A DNA stretch of 64,000 nucleotides from Micromonospora sp. NBC_01699 (GTDB taxonomy: Bacteria > Actinomycetota > Actinomycetes > Mycobacteriales > Micromonosporaceae). The notes beneath the pieces were generated by a model. That model saw only the letters and a program-made list of their open reading frames with translations. It had not been told where the DNA came from and searched no databases. The translations under genes were made by a program, and so were the position numbers. Location of the stretch: positions 1,674,001 through 1,738,000 of the forward strand of contig NZ_CP109199.1 of assembly GCF_036250065.1 (NCBI RefSeq). The letters are read 5' to 3'. Below, piece after piece: positions 24,048 to 50,216 of the stretch. The stretch's first letter is position 1. Each line of letters opens with the position of its first letter.

Positions 24048-24667
24048 CCGGCCGCCGGCGCGGTGTTGGTGGCGCTACCGGCGTCGGACCGATCGGCCGT
24101 CCGGGCCGGGTCACCAGCCACCGGGTCGGTCGTGCCGGCCGGGCCACGAGCCACCGGGGCGGTCGTCCCGGCGGGGCCACGAGCGGCCAGGATCGCCTCG
24201 GCGAGCCGCACCGGGTACCGGGAACTCACCACCCAGTACGGGGTGGGATCGGCCGGGTCGTCGAGAACCACCTGGACGGCACCCGCCACCCAGGGGCGTT
24301 GCACCACGAAGGCGAGCGGGTCCGCGCCGACACCGAGGACCTCGCGGCGTCCCTGCGCGTCCAGGGCGATCGCGTCGCTGACGTACCCGACCGGCAGCCG
24401 GGCGTCGTCGACCAGCAGCTCGCCGTCGCGTACCCGGATCGTGATCCGCCCCACCCGCCAGAGCCCGAGCGCGATCAACGGCAGTAGTACGGCGAACGGG
24501 ACCCAGGCCCGTGCGCCGTCCGAGCCCATCCAGATCTCCATCGCGAGCAGGGCGCCGGCCACCATCCCGGCCAGCCACCCCCACCAGGGCAGGAGGAGCC
24601 GTTCGCGATAGCCGTCGGCGTCCGTCAGGGCCGGCGCGGCGGCGGAGGTGAGACGAGTTGGTGCCAC
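24044..24667 (-). CDS. DUF3093 membrane protein
   Basis: A 207-residue protein: YRERLLLPWWGWLAGMVAGA starts the first of two transmembrane helices (about 20-40 and 48-68), followed by a PH-like beta domain (ITIRVRDGELLVDDARLPVG) and RPWVAGAVQVVLDDPADPTP then YWVVSSRYP. This is the DUF3093 pattern (Rv2698 type) with unknown role. The C terminus holds two copies of an 11-residue repeat (VARGPAGTTxP-like) and more Ala/Asp/Thr-rich sequence, a low-complexity tail. GTG 24667 is divergent from dut, 88 bp apart. Confidence 0.82.
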   Translation of the reverse strand: MAPTRLTSAAAPALTDADGYRERLLLPWWGWLAGMVAGALLAMEIWMGSDGARAWVPFAVLLPLIALGLWRVGRITIRVRDGELLVDDARLPVGYVSDAIALDAQGRREVLGVGADPLAFVVQRPWVAGAVQVVLDDPADPTPYWVVSSRYPVRLAEAILAARGPAGTTAPVARGPAGTTDPVAGDPARTADRSDAGSATNTAPAAG

Positions 24668-24755
24668 AGTGTGAGGGTACGGCGCGGCGCGGCGGGGTGA
24701 CCCGGCAGGATAGAGGCCAGCGCCACGCACCCGACGGATCGGAAAGAGTGACACC

Positions 24756-25259
24756 GTGACCCAGGCCGTGCCCGTACCCGTCCGACAGCTCGACCCGGAA
24801 CTACCGCTGCCGGCGTACGCCCATCCCGGCGACGCCGGTGCCGACCTGCTGGCGGCGCGGGACGTGGAGCTCGCACCGGGGGCTCGGGCGCTGGTACCCA
24901 CCGGGATCGCGATCGCCCTGCCGGACGGCTTCGTCGGGCTGGTCCACCCGCGCTCGGGGCTGGCCGCCAGGCTGGGCGTGACGGTGCTCAACGCGCCCGG
25001 TACGGTCGACGCCGGCTACCGCGGCGAGATCCTGGTGAACCTGATCAACCATGACCGGGAGAACCCTGCCAAGATCTCTCGTGGCGACCGGATCGCGCAA
25101 CTCGTGGTGCAGCGGGTGGAACACGTCCGCTTCCATCCCGTCGACGAACTTCCCGCCACCGCGCGGGGCGAGAATGGACACGGTTCGACGGGCGGGCACG
25201 CGGGTCTGGTCCCGCCACGCGACGCAAGCGAGCAGCAGGCAGAGAGGTCGGCACGGTGA
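24756..25259 (+). CDS. dut: dUTP diphosphatase
   Basis: A 167-residue trimeric dUTPase with all five motifs: GDAGADLLA (25-33), PRSGLA (65-70), [11 protein letters not shown] (82-92), RGDRIAQL (109-116) and [11 protein letters not shown] (137-147), where His replaces Phe as in mycobacteria. It hydrolyses dUTP to dUMP and PPi, keeping uracil out of DNA and feeding dTMP synthesis. GTG 24756 follows GGAAAGAG. The last 20 residues extend past the normal end and terminate in ERSAR, the same end as the mini-ORFs that follow; the stop overlaps the next GTG as GTGA. Confidence 0.95.
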
Positions 25260-25366
25260 GCACGAGGAGCGAGCGTTCCGGGGCGGCCCGCGTGGGACGC
25301 GGCTGCGCCGGAATGCGAGTAGAGCTTGCGAGCCCCGCAGTCGCGAACGAAAGGTCGGCACGGTGA
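25256..25366 (+). CDS. 36-codon mini-ORF coupled to dut
   Basis: GTG 25256 overlaps the dut stop (GTGA) and runs to TGA 25366, which overlaps the next GTG. It starts [16 protein letters not shown] and ends [15 protein letters not shown], so the first part is a diverged cassette and the end is the standard one. No protein family is recognised. Expression is likely by reinitiation; whether the peptide matters is unknown. Confidence 0.4.
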
Positions 25367-25474
25367 GCGCGAGGAGTGAGCTTGCGAGCCCCGCAGTCGC
25401 GAACGAAAGGTCGGCACGGTGAGCGCGAGGAGTGAGCTTGCGAGCCCCGCAGTCGCGAACGAAAGGTCGGCACG
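25307..25474 (+). repeat. Three 56-bp tandem units (first one diverged at its 5' end)
   Basis: Units at 25363-25418 and 25419-25474 read as identical; 25307-25362 matches them over its last 40 bases. Each unit begins gtgagcgcgaggagtgagct and ends in gaaaggtcggcacg, so it carries a start codon, a mini-ORF, a ribosome site and, with the next unit, a stop overlapping a start. A variant is present at 48801-48865 on the minus strand. The short word cgcgaacgaaag also occurs at 7451, before another gene start. Confidence 0.9.
25363..25422 (+). CDS. 19-codon mini-ORF, first standard cassette
   Basis: Encodes [19 protein letters not shown]. Its GTG overlaps the previous stop and its TGA overlaps the next GTG. 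AAAGG lies at spacing suitable for ribosome binding before each GTG. Confidence 0.4.
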   Translation: MSARSELASPAVANERSAR

Positions 25475-25478
25475 GTGA
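25419..25478 (+). CDS. 19-codon mini-ORF, second standard cassette
   Basis: The same peptide as the preceding mini-ORF. Its TGA (25476-25478) overlaps GTG 25475, the start of the DUF3710 gene, so the coupling chain reaches a real gene. Confidence 0.4.
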   Translation: MSARSELASPAVANERSAR

Positions 25479-26287
25479 TCTTTTCCCGAGGACGCGGCGG
25501 ACGGCACGCGCGTGACGAGCGGGCCGGTGGGTCCGAGCCGGCGTCGGTCGACCAGCCCGTGGACGACCTGTCCGACGCCCCGGTCCGCGCCGGGGGCCCG
25601 TACGACGTCTCCGAGGCCCCGTCCGGGGTGGAGCGACTCGACCTGGGCAGCTTGAAGATCCCCGCGATCGCCGACGTCGAGATCCGGGTCCAGGCGGACC
25701 CGGAGGGCGTGGTCCAACAGGTGGTGCTGCTGCACGGGGAGAACGCGTTGCAGCTCGGCGTCTTCGCCGCGCCCCGGTCCGAGGGCATCTGGGACGAGGT
25801 GCGCCAGGAGATCCGCGAGTCGCTGTTCAAGGAGGGCACCGCGGTCGAGGAGAGCGACGGCGAGTACGGCGTCGAGCTGCGGGCCCGGGTCCGTACCCCG
25901 GAGGGTTTGACCGACCTGCGGTTCGTCGGCATCGACGGGCCGCGCTGGATGGTCCGCGGTGTCTACCAGGGCCGGGTGGCCAGCGACCCGGACGCCGCCG
26001 GTCCGCTCGCCGACTGCCTGCACGGTCTCGTGGTGGACCGTGGCCAGGAGGCCAAGCCGGTCCGTGAGCCGCTGCCGCTGCGTCTGCCCAAGGAGATCGC
26101 CGAGCGGCAGGCGGCGGAGGCCGCCGCGGCCGGTACCGCACCGGGCGGCGAATCCGTGATCCGGGCGGACGGCGGTGGCCCGGACGGGGCCGGCGCGACG
26201 CCCGTGGCGCGGGTCAACGGCAGCGGCCCGGACCAGCCACAGGCCCGCCGGGGCAAGCCCTCACCGAGGCCGCGCGGGTCGGCCTGA
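25475..26287 (+). CDS. DUF3710 protein
   Basis: A 270-residue protein. The core (about 55-205) has VERLDLGSLKIPAIADVEIR, VVLLHGENALQLGVFAAPRS and GIDGPRWMVRGVYQGRVASD, diagnostic of DUF3710, which follows dut in actinobacteria (Rv2696c type). Both ends are low complexity. Function unknown; no transmembrane segment. The start codon and ribosome site are supplied by the repeat cassette, so its translation probably depends on ribosomes arriving from dut and the mini-ORFs. Confidence 0.85.
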   Translation: MIFSRGRGGRHARDERAGGSEPASVDQPVDDLSDAPVRAGGPYDVSEAPSGVERLDLGSLKIPAIADVEIRVQADPEGVVQQVVLLHGENALQLGVFAAPRSEGIWDEVRQEIRESLFKEGTAVEESDGEYGVELRARVRTPEGLTDLRFVGIDGPRWMVRGVYQGRVASDPDAAGPLADCLHGLVVDRGQEAKPVREPLPLRLPKEIAERQAAEAAAAGTAPGGESVIRADGGGPDGAGATPVARVNGSGPDQPQARRGKPSPRPRGSA

Positions 26288-26416
26288 GCGGTGTTCCGCC
26301 GGTCCGCGGCGGTCCGGCACGGCGGCGTACGCTGAAGGCACGGTCCCCGTCGGGACCGGCTGGAACTGGCCGCGACCGGATGATCCGGGGCGGTTCGAGG
26401 AGGGTGGCACGGGGTC

Positions 26417-26797
26417 ATGGCGACCGACGAGGGTCGGGGGTCGCTGCGCAACCTCCTACAGCGGCTGACCGCGAGCGAGGCCGAGATCGAGGCGCAGGAG
26501 CTGCGCCGGGAGAGCGCGCAGTGCGGGGCCACACCGGCCGGGCTCTGCCGTCGGGGCGAGCTGGTGTCGATCTCCGGGCGGCTCCGTACGGTGGTGTACA
26601 CCCCACGGACGAACCTGCCCACCCTGGAGGCCGACCTCTACGACGGCACCGACGTGGTGACCCTGGTCTGGCTGGGGCGTCGGCACATCATCGGCATCGA
26701 GCCGGGGCGGCAATTGACCGTTCGTGGTCGCGTGGCGATCCGGGATGACCGTAAAGTCATCTACAACCCGCACTACGAGTTGGAACTGCCCCGTTGA
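26417..26797 (+). CDS. OB-fold nucleic-acid-binding domain protein
   Basis: A 126-residue protein with a single OB fold: CRRGELVSISGRLRTVVYTP, then LEADLYDGTDVVTLVWLGRR, and IGIEPGRQLTVRGRVAIRDD. The N-terminal 40 residues are helical (LLQRLTASEAEIEAQELRRE). Its place between DUF3710 and DUF3159 is that of Rv2694c. The fold suggests RNA, DNA or tRNA binding; the ligand is unknown. ATG 26417 is preceded by GAGGGTGGCACGGGGTC. Confidence 0.85.
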   Translation: MATDEGRGSLRNLLQRLTASEAEIEAQELRRESAQCGATPAGLCRRGELVSISGRLRTVVYTPRTNLPTLEADLYDGTDVVTLVWLGRRHIIGIEPGRQLTVRGRVAIRDDRKVIYNPHYELELPR

Positions 26798-46733: not shown

Positions 46734-48800
46734 TCAGGCGGGGAGGCTGGCTATGCCGTACGGGAGGAAGCGTTGGGCGGTGACTCGGTCGGAGGTGCCG
46801 GTTCGGTCCAGGTACGGGGTGATGCCGCCCAGGTGGAAGGGCCAGCCGGCGCCCAGGATCAGGCACAGGTCGATGTCCGGCGCGGCGGCGACCACGCCCT
46901 CGTCCAGCATCAGCCGGATCTCCCCGGCCAGTGCGTCCAGTGCGCGCTGGCGTACCTGTTCGGTGTCGAGTGGCTGGTCGCCGACCTGGAGCAGGGCCGC
47001 GACCTCGGGGTCGATCTCGTCGTCGACCAGCAGCGGCCGACCGGCGTCGGCGAGCCGCTTCAGGTTCTCGCTCAGGCCGAACCGGTCCGGGAAGGCGGCG
47101 TGCAGCGTCGCCCCGGTGTGGTACGCCACCGCCGGTCCGACCAGTTGCAGCAGGGCCAGCGGGCGCATTGGCAGCCCGAGCGGGTCCAGCGCGCTGTCGG
47201 CCACCTCCAGCGGGGTGCCCGCGTCGACCGCCGCGAAGATCTCCCCGAGGAAGCGGGTGAGCAGCCGGTTGACCACGAACGCCGGTGCGTCGGAGACCAG
47301 TACGCAGGACTTGCGCAGCTCCTTGCCGACCGCGAACGCGGTGGCCAGGGTGGCGTCGTCGGTCCGCTCGCCCCGGATGATCTCCAACAGCGGGAGCACC
47401 GCGACCGGGTTGAAGAAGTGGAAGCCGACCACCCGCTCCGGGTGCTCCAGGTCGGCGGCCATCGCACCGATCGACAGTGACGAGGTGTTCGTGGCGAGCA
47501 CCGTCTCCGGTGAGACGATCTTTTCCAGTTCGGCCCAGACCTGCTTCTTCACGCCGAGGTCCTCGAACACCGCCTCGATCACGAAGTCGGCGTCGGCGAA
47601 GACGGACTTGTCCACCGAACCGGTGACCAGGCCGCGCAGCTTGGCGGCCGTACCGACGTCCAGCCGACCCTTGCCGAGCAGCTTCTCGATCTCGCCGTGC
47701 ACGTAGGCGACGCCCTTGTCGACCCGGTTCTGGTCGAGGTCGGTGAGCACCACCGGCACCTGCAACCGGCGGGCGAACAGCAGCGCCAACTGGGAGGCCA
47801 TCAGGCCGGCGCCGACGATGCCGACCTTCGTCACCGGACGGGCCAGCGTCGCCGGGGGAGCACCGACCGGCTTGCGGGCCCGGCGCTGGACCAGGTCGAA
47901 CGCGTACAGGCCGCTGCGCAGTTCCTCGCTCAGGATCAGGTCCGCCAGGGCCTCGTCCTCGGCCGCCGTACCGTCCTCGAACGACGCCTCGCCGGCCAGG
48001 CCGAGCAGTTCCAACGCCCGGTACGCGGACGGCACCGCACCGTGCAGCCGCTGGTCGAGCGTCTGCCGGGCGAAGAACATCACCCCGTCCCACATCTCCC
48101 GGTCGACCTCGGGGCGGGTCACCGTGACGGTGCCGCAGACCACACCGGCCGCCCACTCCAGCGACCGCTCCAGGAAGTCGGCCGGTTCGAGCAGTACGTC
48201 GGCGATGCCCAGCTCGGCCGCCTGCTTCGGCTTGAGCATCCGGTTCTGCATCAGCGGGTTCGAAATGATCACCTGGGTGGCCGCCGCGATGCCGATCAGG
48301 TTCGGCAGCAACTGCGTACCGCCCCAGCCGGGCACCAGGCCCAGCGAGACCTCGGGCAGCGCCAGCGCTCCCGCGCCGCCGGAGAGCGTCCGGTAGTGGC
48401 AGTGCAGGGCCAACTCCAGGCCGCCGCCCAGCGCCGCGCCGTTGACGAAGGCGAAGGTCGGCACCGTGCTGTCGCGCAGCCGGGCGAAGACCCGGTGGCC
48501 GAGCCGGCCGATGTCGAGCGCCTGCTCCCGGTCGGTGACCAGCGGGATGCCGGTCACGTCCGCGCCGACGCAGAAGATGTACGGCTTCCCGGTCACCGCG
48601 ACCAGCGCCGGCTCGGCGGCCAGCGCGGCGGTGATCGCCTCGTCCAGGCTGGCCAGTCCGGCCGGCCCGAGGCTGTTCGGCTTCCTGTGGTCGAAGCCGT
48701 TGTCGAGCGTGATCAGCGCCGCCGGCCGATCCAGCCCCGGTACGTTCACCAGCCGCAACAGCGCCTTCGTGACAACCTCGTCCGGATTCTGCAAAGTCAT
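46734..48800 (-). CDS. fadB: 3-hydroxyacyl-CoA dehydrogenase/enoyl-CoA hydratase (FadB-type)
   Basis: A 688-residue bifunctional beta-oxidation enzyme. N-terminal crotonase domain (about 1-190: AALGGGLELALHCHYRTLSG, PEVSLGLVPGWGGTQLLPNL with the catalytic Glu). Dehydrogenase from about 325: VGIVGAGLMASQLALLFA (NAD site), NTSSLSIGAMA, GFHFFNPVAVLPLLEIIRG and two C-terminal 3HCDH segments (FVVNRLLTRFLGEIF). With the thiolase it forms the trifunctional complex for fatty-acid degradation. ATG 48800 overlaps the stop of a 22-codon mini-ORF (ATGA), which in turn overlaps the thiolase stop. Confidence 0.93.
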   Translation of the reverse strand: MTLQNPDEVVTKALLRLVNVPGLDRPAALITLDNGFDHRKPNSLGPAGLASLDEAITAALAAEPALVAVTGKPYIFCVGADVTGIPLVTDREQALDIGRLGHRVFARLRDSTVPTFAFVNGAALGGGLELALHCHYRTLSGGAGALALPEVSLGLVPGWGGTQLLPNLIGIAAATQVIISNPLMQNRMLKPKQAAELGIADVLLEPADFLERSLEWAAGVVCGTVTVTRPEVDREMWDGVMFFARQTLDQRLHGAVPSAYRALELLGLAGEASFEDGTAAEDEALADLILSEELRSGLYAFDLVQRRARKPVGAPPATLARPVTKVGIVGAGLMASQLALLFARRLQVPVVLTDLDQNRVDKGVAYVHGEIEKLLGKGRLDVGTAAKLRGLVTGSVDKSVFADADFVIEAVFEDLGVKKQVWAELEKIVSPETVLATNTSSLSIGAMAADLEHPERVVGFHFFNPVAVLPLLEIIRGERTDDATLATAFAVGKELRKSCVLVSDAPAFVVNRLLTRFLGEIFAAVDAGTPLEVADSALDPLGLPMRPLALLQLVGPAVAYHTGATLHAAFPDRFGLSENLKRLADAGRPLLVDDEIDPEVAALLQVGDQPLDTEQVRQRALDALAGEIRLMLDEGVVAAAPDIDLCLILGAGWPFHLGGITPYLDRTGTSDRVTAQRFLPYGIASLPA

Positions 48801-48865
48801 TGTGCTGTCACACCTTTCGTTCCCGACTGCGGGGCTCGCAAGATCGGCTCACTCCTCGCGCTCAC
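48797..48865 (-). CDS. 22-codon mini-ORF between fadA and fadB (variant coupling cassette)
   Basis: On the minus strand GTG 48865 overlaps the fadA stop (GTGA), and the TGA at 48797-48799 overlaps fadB ATG 48800 (ATGA). It starts VSARSE like the dut cassette, then a 5-nt insertion shifts the frame and gives a different remainder (PILRAPQSGTKG...). gaacgaaaggtgtgacagca supplies a ribosome site. Conserved at DNA level to the 56-bp unit at 25363. Confidence 0.45.
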   Translation of the reverse strand: MSARSEPILRAPQSGTKGVTAQ

Positions 48866-50055
48866 GCTGCCCCGTTCCAGTTCGGGTTCTCCCAGATCAC
48901 GGTGCCGCCCATGCCGATGCCGATGCACATGGCGGTGAGGCCGTAGCGCACCTGCGGCTGCTCGGCGAACTGCCGGGAGAGCTGGGTCATCAGCCGTACG
49001 CCGGAGGAGGCGAGCGGGTGGCCGACGGCGATCGCCCCGCCCCACTGGTTGACCCGGGGGTCGTCGTCGCCGATGCCGAAGTGGTCGAGGAAGGTGAGCA
49101 CCTGGACCGCGAACGCCTCGTTCAGCTCGAACAGGCCGATGTCGTCGATGGTCAGCCCGGCGATCCGCAGCGCCTTCTCGGTGGACGGGATCGGGCCGAT
49201 CCCCATCACCTCCGGCTCGACCCCGACGAAGCCGTACGACACCAGGCGCATGCCGATCGGCAGGCCGAGCTCGCGGGCCACCTCCTCGGCGGCGAGCAGG
49301 CTGGCGGTGGCGCCGTCGTTGAGTCCGGCGGCGTTGCCGGCGGTGACCCTGCCGTGCGGGCGGAACGGGGTCTTCAGCCCGGCGAGCTTCTCCAGTGAGG
49401 TGTCGCGGGGCGCCTCGTCCACGCATGCCAGGGCCCAGCCGGTCTCCGGGTCGCGGATCGCGACGGTCACCAGGTCGTCCTGGAGCTTGCCGTTGGCGTA
49501 CGCCTTGGCGGTCTTCTGCTGGGAGGCGAGCGCGAAGGCGTCCGAGCGCTCCTTGGTGACGTGCGGGACCCGGTCGTGCAGGTTCTCCGCGGTGGAGCCC
49601 ATCACCAGGGCGGACGGGTCGACCAGCTTCTCGGCCAGGATGCGCGGGTTGGGGTCCACGCCCTCGCCCATCGGGTGCCGGCCCATGTGCTCGACCCCGC
49701 CGGCGATGGCCACGTCGTACGCGCCCATGGCGATGCCGCCGGCCACCGTGGTCACCGCGGTCATCGCACCGGCGCACATCCGGTCGATGGCGTAGCCCGG
49801 TACGGTCTTCGGCAGCCCGGCCAGGAGCGCGGCGGTACGGCCGATGGTCAGCCCCTGGTCACCGATCTGGGTGGTGGCGGCGATGGCCACCTCGTCGACC
49901 CGCTCCGGTGGCAGTTGCGGGTTGCGTCGCAGCAGTTCACGGATGCAGCGGATGACCAGGTCGTCGGCACGGGTGTTGGCGTACATCCCACCCGCCTTGC
50001 CGAACGGGGTACGGACGCCGTCGACGAAGACGACTTCCCTGACTTCTCGGGGCAC
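48862..50055 (-). CDS. fadA: Acetyl-CoA C-acyltransferase (thiolase)
   Basis: A 397-residue thiolase. Nucleophilic C94 is in IDRMCAGAMTAV; the second-half residues are in NQWGGAIAVGHPLASSG (His) and LTAMCIGIGMGG (Cys). It performs the last step of beta-oxidation, forming acetyl-CoA from 3-ketoacyl-CoA. GTG 50055 follows aaggaggctcaa, a strong ribosome site. fadA lies first in the operon and fadB second, joined by the mini-ORF cassette. It is divergent from the epimerase gene. Confidence 0.94.
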   Translation of the reverse strand: MPREVREVVFVDGVRTPFGKAGGMYANTRADDLVIRCIRELLRRNPQLPPERVDEVAIAATTQIGDQGLTIGRTAALLAGLPKTVPGYAIDRMCAGAMTAVTTVAGGIAMGAYDVAIAGGVEHMGRHPMGEGVDPNPRILAEKLVDPSALVMGSTAENLHDRVPHVTKERSDAFALASQQKTAKAYANGKLQDDLVTVAIRDPETGWALACVDEAPRDTSLEKLAGLKTPFRPHGRVTAGNAAGLNDGATASLLAAEEVARELGLPIGMRLVSYGFVGVEPEVMGIGPIPSTEKALRIAGLTIDDIGLFELNEAFAVQVLTFLDHFGIGDDDPRVNQWGGAIAVGHPLASSGVRLMTQLSRQFAEQPQVRYGLTAMCIGIGMGGTVIWENPNWNGAA

Positions 50056-50216
50056 TTGAGCCTCCTTGGCGGCGGGGCGTGTACCCCGGATGCTACTCGC
50101 CGGTAACTAGGGCTGTCAGTGCGCTGTCTGTGGTCCGGGCCACACCGCGCCCGTCCGGCGGTTCATCCCGGTCCGGTAGGTTGATCGGGACCGGATGGGG
50201 CGATACGGAGGCGGCG

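Follow-up and report, generated by a model that had tools for sequence, protein, structure and literature searches.

A short repeat of probable MIRU kind interspersed at gene junctions of Micromonospora and other Micromonosporaceae

The genes for dUTPase (dut) and a DUF3710 protein in Micromonospora sp. NBC_01699 are joined by three very small reading frames, each tied to the next by an overlapping stop and start codon. This arrangement raises the question of what such a structure is and how it could settle between two genes of an operon. The locus lies in the window, the whole stretch of 64,000 nucleotides analysed from this genome (G000, 8.28 Mb). On the plus strand, dut occupies 24756..25259 (PF00692, E 9.1e-30) and the DUF3710 gene, which has a GTG start, 25475..26287 (PF12502, E 3e-60). 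The stop codon of dut, TGA at 25257-25259, shares the GTGA at 25256-25259 with a GTG at 25256-25258, and further GTGA overlaps follow at 25363-25366, 25419-25422, and 25475-25478. They bound a long first unit (25256..25366, plus strand) with a mini-ORF of 36 codons and GTGA at both ends, and two short-variant units (25363..25422 and 25419..25478, plus strand), whose mini-ORFs of 19 codons were read as identical, the TGA of the second overlapping the DUF3710 start. A ribosome-site-like stretch with its GTGA, AGGTCGGCACGGTGA, stands at the 5' end of the array (25245..25259, plus strand) and recurs exactly at three other sites, 25352-25366, 25408-25422, and 25464-25478, the last being the 3' copy next to DUF3710 on the same strand; it is single-copy at the empty dut/DUF3710 junction of the sister genome G001. 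The four overlaps linking dut to DUF3710 through mini-ORFs of 36, 19, and 19 codons are thus as the preliminary description had read them. The first unit is a longer relative (107 bp) that contains a palindrome and is not identical to the other two. TRF gives a period of 56 bp, 2.9 copies, and a 99% match.

The palindrome of the long unit (about 25273-25316, arms of about 20 bp) is common to G000 and G002 and is possibly a nested insertion. A second repeat family was considered as its source and rejected for want of a good further copy in G000, where the next best match reaches only E 0.01 over 19 bases.

Chains of three to five mini-ORFs (8-60 codons) linked by GTGA, ATGA, or TTGA were present in 20 of 20 random windows from a first-order Markov model, and the longest chain in the real window is three, on either strand. 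Since random windows of the same composition hold such chains, a mini-ORF chain alone is unsurprising, and the idea that it is improbable in itself was ruled out by this control. Three things go beyond chance: the chain exactly joins two real genes, it consists of a repeat, and the arrangement is met again at numerous independent junctions. The 27-base core matches the window four times with at most three mismatches; the mean number of matches over 100 shuffles was 0.00. One match belongs to a second copy, absent from the preliminary description and found by core match and ORF reading, on the minus strand at 48797..48865. It is a single unit with a mini-ORF of 22 codons running from GTGA to ATGA, placed between a thiolase gene (48862..50070, minus strand, PF00108/PF02803, start at the high-coordinate end not called) and a fadB-like gene for enoyl-CoA hydratase/3-hydroxyacyl-CoA dehydrogenase (46734..48800, minus strand, PF02737, PF00378, PF00725). 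The thiolase stop, TGA at 48864-48862, falls in the GTGA of this copy, and the ATG start of the fadB-like gene is overlapped, as ATGA, by the stop of the mini-ORF.

The repeat extends well beyond the window. A sequence model gave nine matches with E <1e-4 at seven sites of G000, and 14 matches up to E 1. Of the 121 family genomes, 31 contained matches to a strict near-consensus pattern; they represent 14 of the 44 genera sampled, and the highest count, 33 matches, was that of G046. A reversed control pattern had zero matches in any of the family genomes listed. Because copies were selected by this near-consensus pattern, diverged copies elsewhere are under-sampled. The loci collected, at least 120, come from Micromonospora, Plantactinospora, Paractinoplanes, and one Micromonosporaceae bacterium, and none among those listed is from Mycobacterium. 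These names, and a match at 100% of G167 (genus g4) to 385 bases of Micromonospora mirobrigensis, place the family sampled as Micromonosporaceae. Outside G000 and G005, the candidates retained from 296 genomes of the phylum were limited to four weak hits of model R1 (E 3.7e-4 to 8.8e-4), and on reading these did not have the anatomy of the element; candidates were capped in this search and its filters were strict, and it missed one G005 site that the pattern scan had found. An interspersed mobile repeat family, common in Micromonospora, is real, and the dut/DUF3710 array is a member of it rather than a local minisatellite. Among the open-access papers listed in a literature search, no title or abstract opening described such a repeat in Micromonosporaceae, and of four short forms of its sequence only one was matched, by papers whose titles concern muscle or horses.

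Position, strand, and frame were surveyed in loci L052-L171 (at least 120), of which the first 80 were surveyed and the other 40 held out. The 80 loci contained 84 arrays with 138 units, reduced to 66 clusters of one representative each that have no flanking gene in common (blastp, 45% over 50 aa). Genes were called by a codon-score script and not taken from annotation, and the counts of stops and phases omit flanks with a codon score <=0.1 or running off the locus. Phase is the frame of the downstream gene relative to the GTG of the last unit, 2 denoting a 4-nt overlap and 0 a run-on fusion. Before reduction, 67 of 84 arrays had neighbours on both sides that run in the direction of the repeat, and among the 68 arrays, out of 84, for which a start was found, 51 showed a 4-nt overlap between the mini-ORF stop and the start of the downstream gene. 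Of 74 cases, 49 had GTGA as the tetranucleotide at the downstream start and 14 had ATGA; in 6 no start was found. After reduction, the repeat lay in sense between co-directional genes at all 54 sites, of the 66, with both flanks callable. The upstream stop was exactly the TGA of the repeat in 40 of 55 sites and elsewhere in 15. Phases 2, 0, and 1 were found 43, 12, and 3 times (n=58; p 2.5e-10 against one third), 15 of 58 thus lying outside the overlap phase. In three arrays (L079, L095, L105), the upstream side was assigned to the opposite strand. They represent a single junction, which on reading holds a short co-directional ORF with its stop overlapping the next start, and they were clustered under L063, whose upstream flank extends past the end of the locus.

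The held-out loci gave 34 clusters, of which 31 were sense-sense, two had one side callable, and one (L146), on reading the small-ORF junction of L079, L095, and L105 again, had its upstream side scored minus. Sense orientation held in 31 of 32, the stop was exact in 26 of 30, and phases 2/0/1 were 23/7/1 (n=31). For all of the at least 120 loci pooled into 80 clusters, the figures were 68 of 68, 52 of 68, and 52/15/4 (n=71); in the 14 clusters without a gene in common with the first 80 loci, they were 14 of 14, 12 of 13, and 9/3/1 of 13. The proposal that the repeat is operon-internal and in sense with its operon therefore stands, at 54 of 54 and 31 of 32 held out. The pattern that had been named as speaking against it, copies mostly outside operons, randomly oriented, or with the overlaps lost, was looked for and is not what these loci contain.

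A walk through the frames reached the next gene at 32 of 37 sites, at 27 of 37 after one added base (fusion), and at 11 of 37 after two. As the one-base-shifted control also passes 27 of 37 and only one phase is bad, the frame walk is weak evidence, and it was downgraded as a proof of coupling. In single genomes, the downstream gene was in sense at nine of nine sites of G005 (pattern and model searches combined), and clean sense junctions were present at only four of the seven G000 sites. One G000 copy, of the short variant, is embedded in frame within a gene for a P-type ATPase (PF00122; L268:1501-1555, G000:C1:3640436-3640490), presumably kdpB, where it falls in the loop that precedes RQIRKGA; it is absent from the homologues that were read in G001, G002, G003, and G004. 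Another G000 site is ambiguous, its flanks being scored on the opposite strand, and a further one is a weak match without a callable upstream gene. A diverged copy is present in all three genus genomes (L266, G000:C1:112892-112949; L012 in G001; L014 in G002); its flanks are scored on the opposite strand, though an overlapping GTGA ORF exists in sense. In L321 (G005:C1:4045900-4049100), an array of three units sits at a start-codon GTGA that is separate from the upstream stop, the latter being 57 nt ahead of the core; what the element targets would thus seem to be the start codon and not the stop/start overlap.

The element is very probably a non-autonomous, non-palindromic interspersed repeat of the same kind as the mycobacterial MIRUs, with an anatomy that would let translation pass through it. 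In the sequences compared, a unit follows immediately upon a DTGA that forms the start codon of a gene and mostly already overlaps the stop of the preceding one. The left edge of the unit re-supplies the GTG, and its right edge adds a new DTGA behind a purine-rich stretch that resembles a ribosome site. Ribosomes finishing the upstream gene could then restart on the mini-ORF and again on the downstream gene, and an insertion would cost the operon little. Insertions into operons normally harm downstream expression. Tandem units may arise from slippage or from recombination between identical units, and selection would remove insertions that break the relay, while 3k units running on into the next unit or gene would be tolerated. 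That the unit carries a stop, a start, and a ribosome-site-like stretch, as had been suggested, is supported by the surveyed loci. An SD-like tetramer precedes the 5' GTGA in 30 of 50 sites, compared with 818 of all 3856 GTGAs that these loci contain, and precedes the start of the downstream gene in 41 of 50.

Junctions with and without the repeat bear on its mobility. In G001, AACGAAAGGTCGGCACGGTGA alone joins dut and DUF3710 by a bare GTGA; G002 has one long unit there, and G000 three units with four GTGAs. Among 30 dut/DUF3710 junctions read by eye, a bare GTGA or ATGA overlap was seen in at least seven other genera (G003, G004, G010, G011, G016, G021, G023). Between the genes for pyruvate kinase and an acyl-CoA thioesterase, one or two units occur in 9 of 30 Micromonospora loci and 21 are without a recognisable unit; between a small ORF and a THAP4-like gene, one to three units occur in 16 of 30 and none in 14. 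Both sets are the best 30 of 81 genomes and not a random draw, and absence means none by a fuzzy pattern, some of these loci keeping short remnants. The empty dut, pyruvate kinase, and THAP4-like junctions show a bare GTGA. Empty and filled orthologous sites at these three junctions support the earlier view of the repeat as mobile. Reading along an overlap relay or a run-on frame leads into the downstream gene in 8 of 9 filled pyruvate kinase loci and 15 of 16 filled THAP4-like loci, counts weakened by the one-base-shift control, which 27 of 37 sites pass. At the dut/DUF3710 junction of G005 (L175; genus g4, Micromonospora), a remnant-like mini-ORF of 10 codons lies between two GTGAs.

At some filled junctions, the stretch ahead of the GTGA recurs behind the element, over 15 bp at dut in G000, over 18 bp in G002, and as GGGCTCTTCAGTGA in L106/L202. 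The clearest such matches, 13-18 bp long, are those of dut in G000 and G002, L106/L202, and L067, and few sites have one of this length. For the 50 of 66 clusters with both DTGAs identified, the similarity of the flanks was 5.7/13 versus 4.66 for permuted pairs, a value reached in 0 of 2000 permutations, which is consistent with a target duplication. The similarity of spacers between loci (5.73/14) nearly equals that of spacers to their own flank (5.94/14; 4.90 to other flanks), and part of the spacer therefore either travels with the element or is convergent ribosome-site sequence. A spacer made wholly of target duplication was accordingly abandoned: the duplication accounts for it only in part, and at many sites the spacer looks element-derived. 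The empty G001 junction already resembles the right end of the element, so that recombination driven by similarity would also fit. Conceivably, the mobility mechanism itself dictates the exact placement after start codons and the strict sense orientation, which would then be more than a residue of selection. Insertion could, for example, be guided by mRNA or the translation-initiation region, either RNA-templated or by template switching, and such a process would also yield duplications of 13-18 bp comprising the ribosome site and the DTGA. We consider this unlikely.

The number of units varies as well. Arrays of one to four units were found in the listed loci, with up to six in G005, and the earlier claim that the repeat is expandable is supported by these arrays and by the range of 0-3 units at one orthologous junction. 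The same range, observed across species among the best 30 of 81 genomes, and the arrays of up to four units, or six in G005, would also suit a selected regulatory cassette whose copy number tunes the downstream gene and which the host keeps for that purpose. No recognisable unit is present, however, in 21 of 30 and 14 of 30 loci at the two junctions, and such a function is quite improbable. Typical units measure 56, 59, or 62 bp, which is 3k+2. A GTGA overlap at each unit is not needed, as periods of 3k are as frequent as those of 3k+2: modulo 3, the periods of 30 non-redundant arrays in the listed loci are 2, 0, and 1 in 14, 14, and 2 cases, and 38 arrays across the at least 120 loci give 19, 17, and 2. 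With 3k+2 and 3k equally common and 3k+1 rare, either a stop/start handover or a run-on frame appears to be tolerated.

The core exists as variants of 34 and 39 bp, 5 bp apart, extending from GCGAGGAG through GTCGCGA. The 56-bp and 59-bp variants have two DNA blocks in common, the second of which is read in different frames; the thiolase/fadB copy reads VSARSEPILRAPQSGTKGVTAQ, and the second half of the window array is in another frame. Phase 2 is found in 15 of 20 short-variant and 42 of 54 long-variant arrays. The variants differ in the frame of their second half and yet keep the overlap, which argues for the coupling phase and against a functional peptide, and the suggestion that the unit encodes a peptide of 19 residues is not upheld. 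If the unit were kept for the function of a peptide of 19-20 residues, the open mini-ORF of many copies and the short-variant reading that stays in frame inside the G000 ATPase gene would be explained, but not the change of frame between variants; this possibility is very improbable. The 29 invariant columns in alignment A1 (52 units) are largely so by construction, since the near-consensus pattern picked the copies, and for the same reason the DNA identity of the blocks is no evidence for or against a peptide.

Short, interspersed, non-autonomous repeats are also known as REP/REPIN sequences with RAYT. A palindromic element of REP or MITE type, moved by a RAYT-like or other transposase and found at gene starts only incidentally, would be short, multicopy, and interspersed like the present one, and the long first unit does contain a palindrome. 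Ordinary units contain none, however, and six of six units fold no better than their shuffles (z -1.04 to +1.52, all > -1.1); the long first unit forms a hairpin with a z of only -1.04. No Rfam match up to E 1 was found in 24500-26500 of the window. Y1_Tnp (PF01797) was present in two of eight element-bearing genomes and in two of eight without a pattern match, no association thus appearing in these 16 genomes, and the position at gene starts is not incidental in the surveyed or the held-out loci. The fold scores and the Rfam search do not support a structured RNA or REP, the equal frequency of PF01797 in the 16 genomes does not point to a RAYT partner, and this explanation is very improbable. 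A local minisatellite, born by slippage at dut and immobile, would account for the two identical short units and is refuted by the same core at dozens of unrelated junctions, its presence in 14 of 44 genera, and the empty orthologous sites.

Rickettsia palindromic elements are repeats able to sit in frame inside genes, as the copy in the ATPase gene does. They differ from the present repeat, which is not palindromic, has one such copy here, and lies mostly at gene junctions. Mycobacterial interspersed repetitive units, or MIRUs, were reportedly described by Supply et al. in 1997 (Mol Microbiol 26:991). According to a 2025 review (PMC12548453), MIRUs are apparently mobile elements whose insertion takes place at start codons, with an inner ORF coupled at -4 nt, an anatomy like that found here; insertion at a start codon or DTGA holds for the present repeat except for the ATPase-gene copy and the 15 of 55 upstream stops located elsewhere. 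Another review (PMC4473831) describes them as without dyad symmetry, with small ORFs that overlap their neighbours in the same direction. Similarly, the present repeat is intergenic, tandem, and in the sense of its neighbours, the ends of its small ORFs overlap the flanking ORFs, and six units are without excess fold, the long unit having a local palindrome. The MIRU unit lengths of 77 and 53 bp stated in two further papers (PMC2453075, PMC4213456) are 3k+2, as are the 56, 59, and 62 bp found here. The present repeat belongs to another bacterial family and, unlike MIRUs, has two core variants differing in frame, arrays of 3k period that run on, a copy embedded in frame within a gene, and numerous junctions that are empty in one species and filled in another. 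The strictly filtered search of 296 phylum genomes with model R1 brought no sign of kinship in sequence with MIRUs. Since the functional features listed recur here and the two were set side by side by description alone, the repeat is best regarded as a family in its own right, of one kind with the MIRUs. By this analogy it would work like a MIRU, a kind already known from mycobacteria that the preliminary description did not name.

These results indicate a second bacterial lineage with a repeat so built that ribosomes could be passed along the operon. Micromonospora species are harmless and culturable, and their numerous junctions with and without units could make movement, coupling, and the effect of copy number approachable outside mycobacteria. 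For annotation, downstream starts, upstream C-termini, and short ORFs at such junctions may be element-derived and call for caution.

Two groups of loci carry smaller traces. L236, L240, L250, L251, L254, and L256 hold no recognisable unit and carry a pair of GTGAs with a spacing of 8 or 9 nt; such pairs may mark where units were lost or may show the state before insertion. In L093, L104, L126, L130, L131, and L265, element-like codons (GTGAGCGCGAGG or near) directly follow the last unit, and represent either a partial unit or an N-terminus derived from a lost one.
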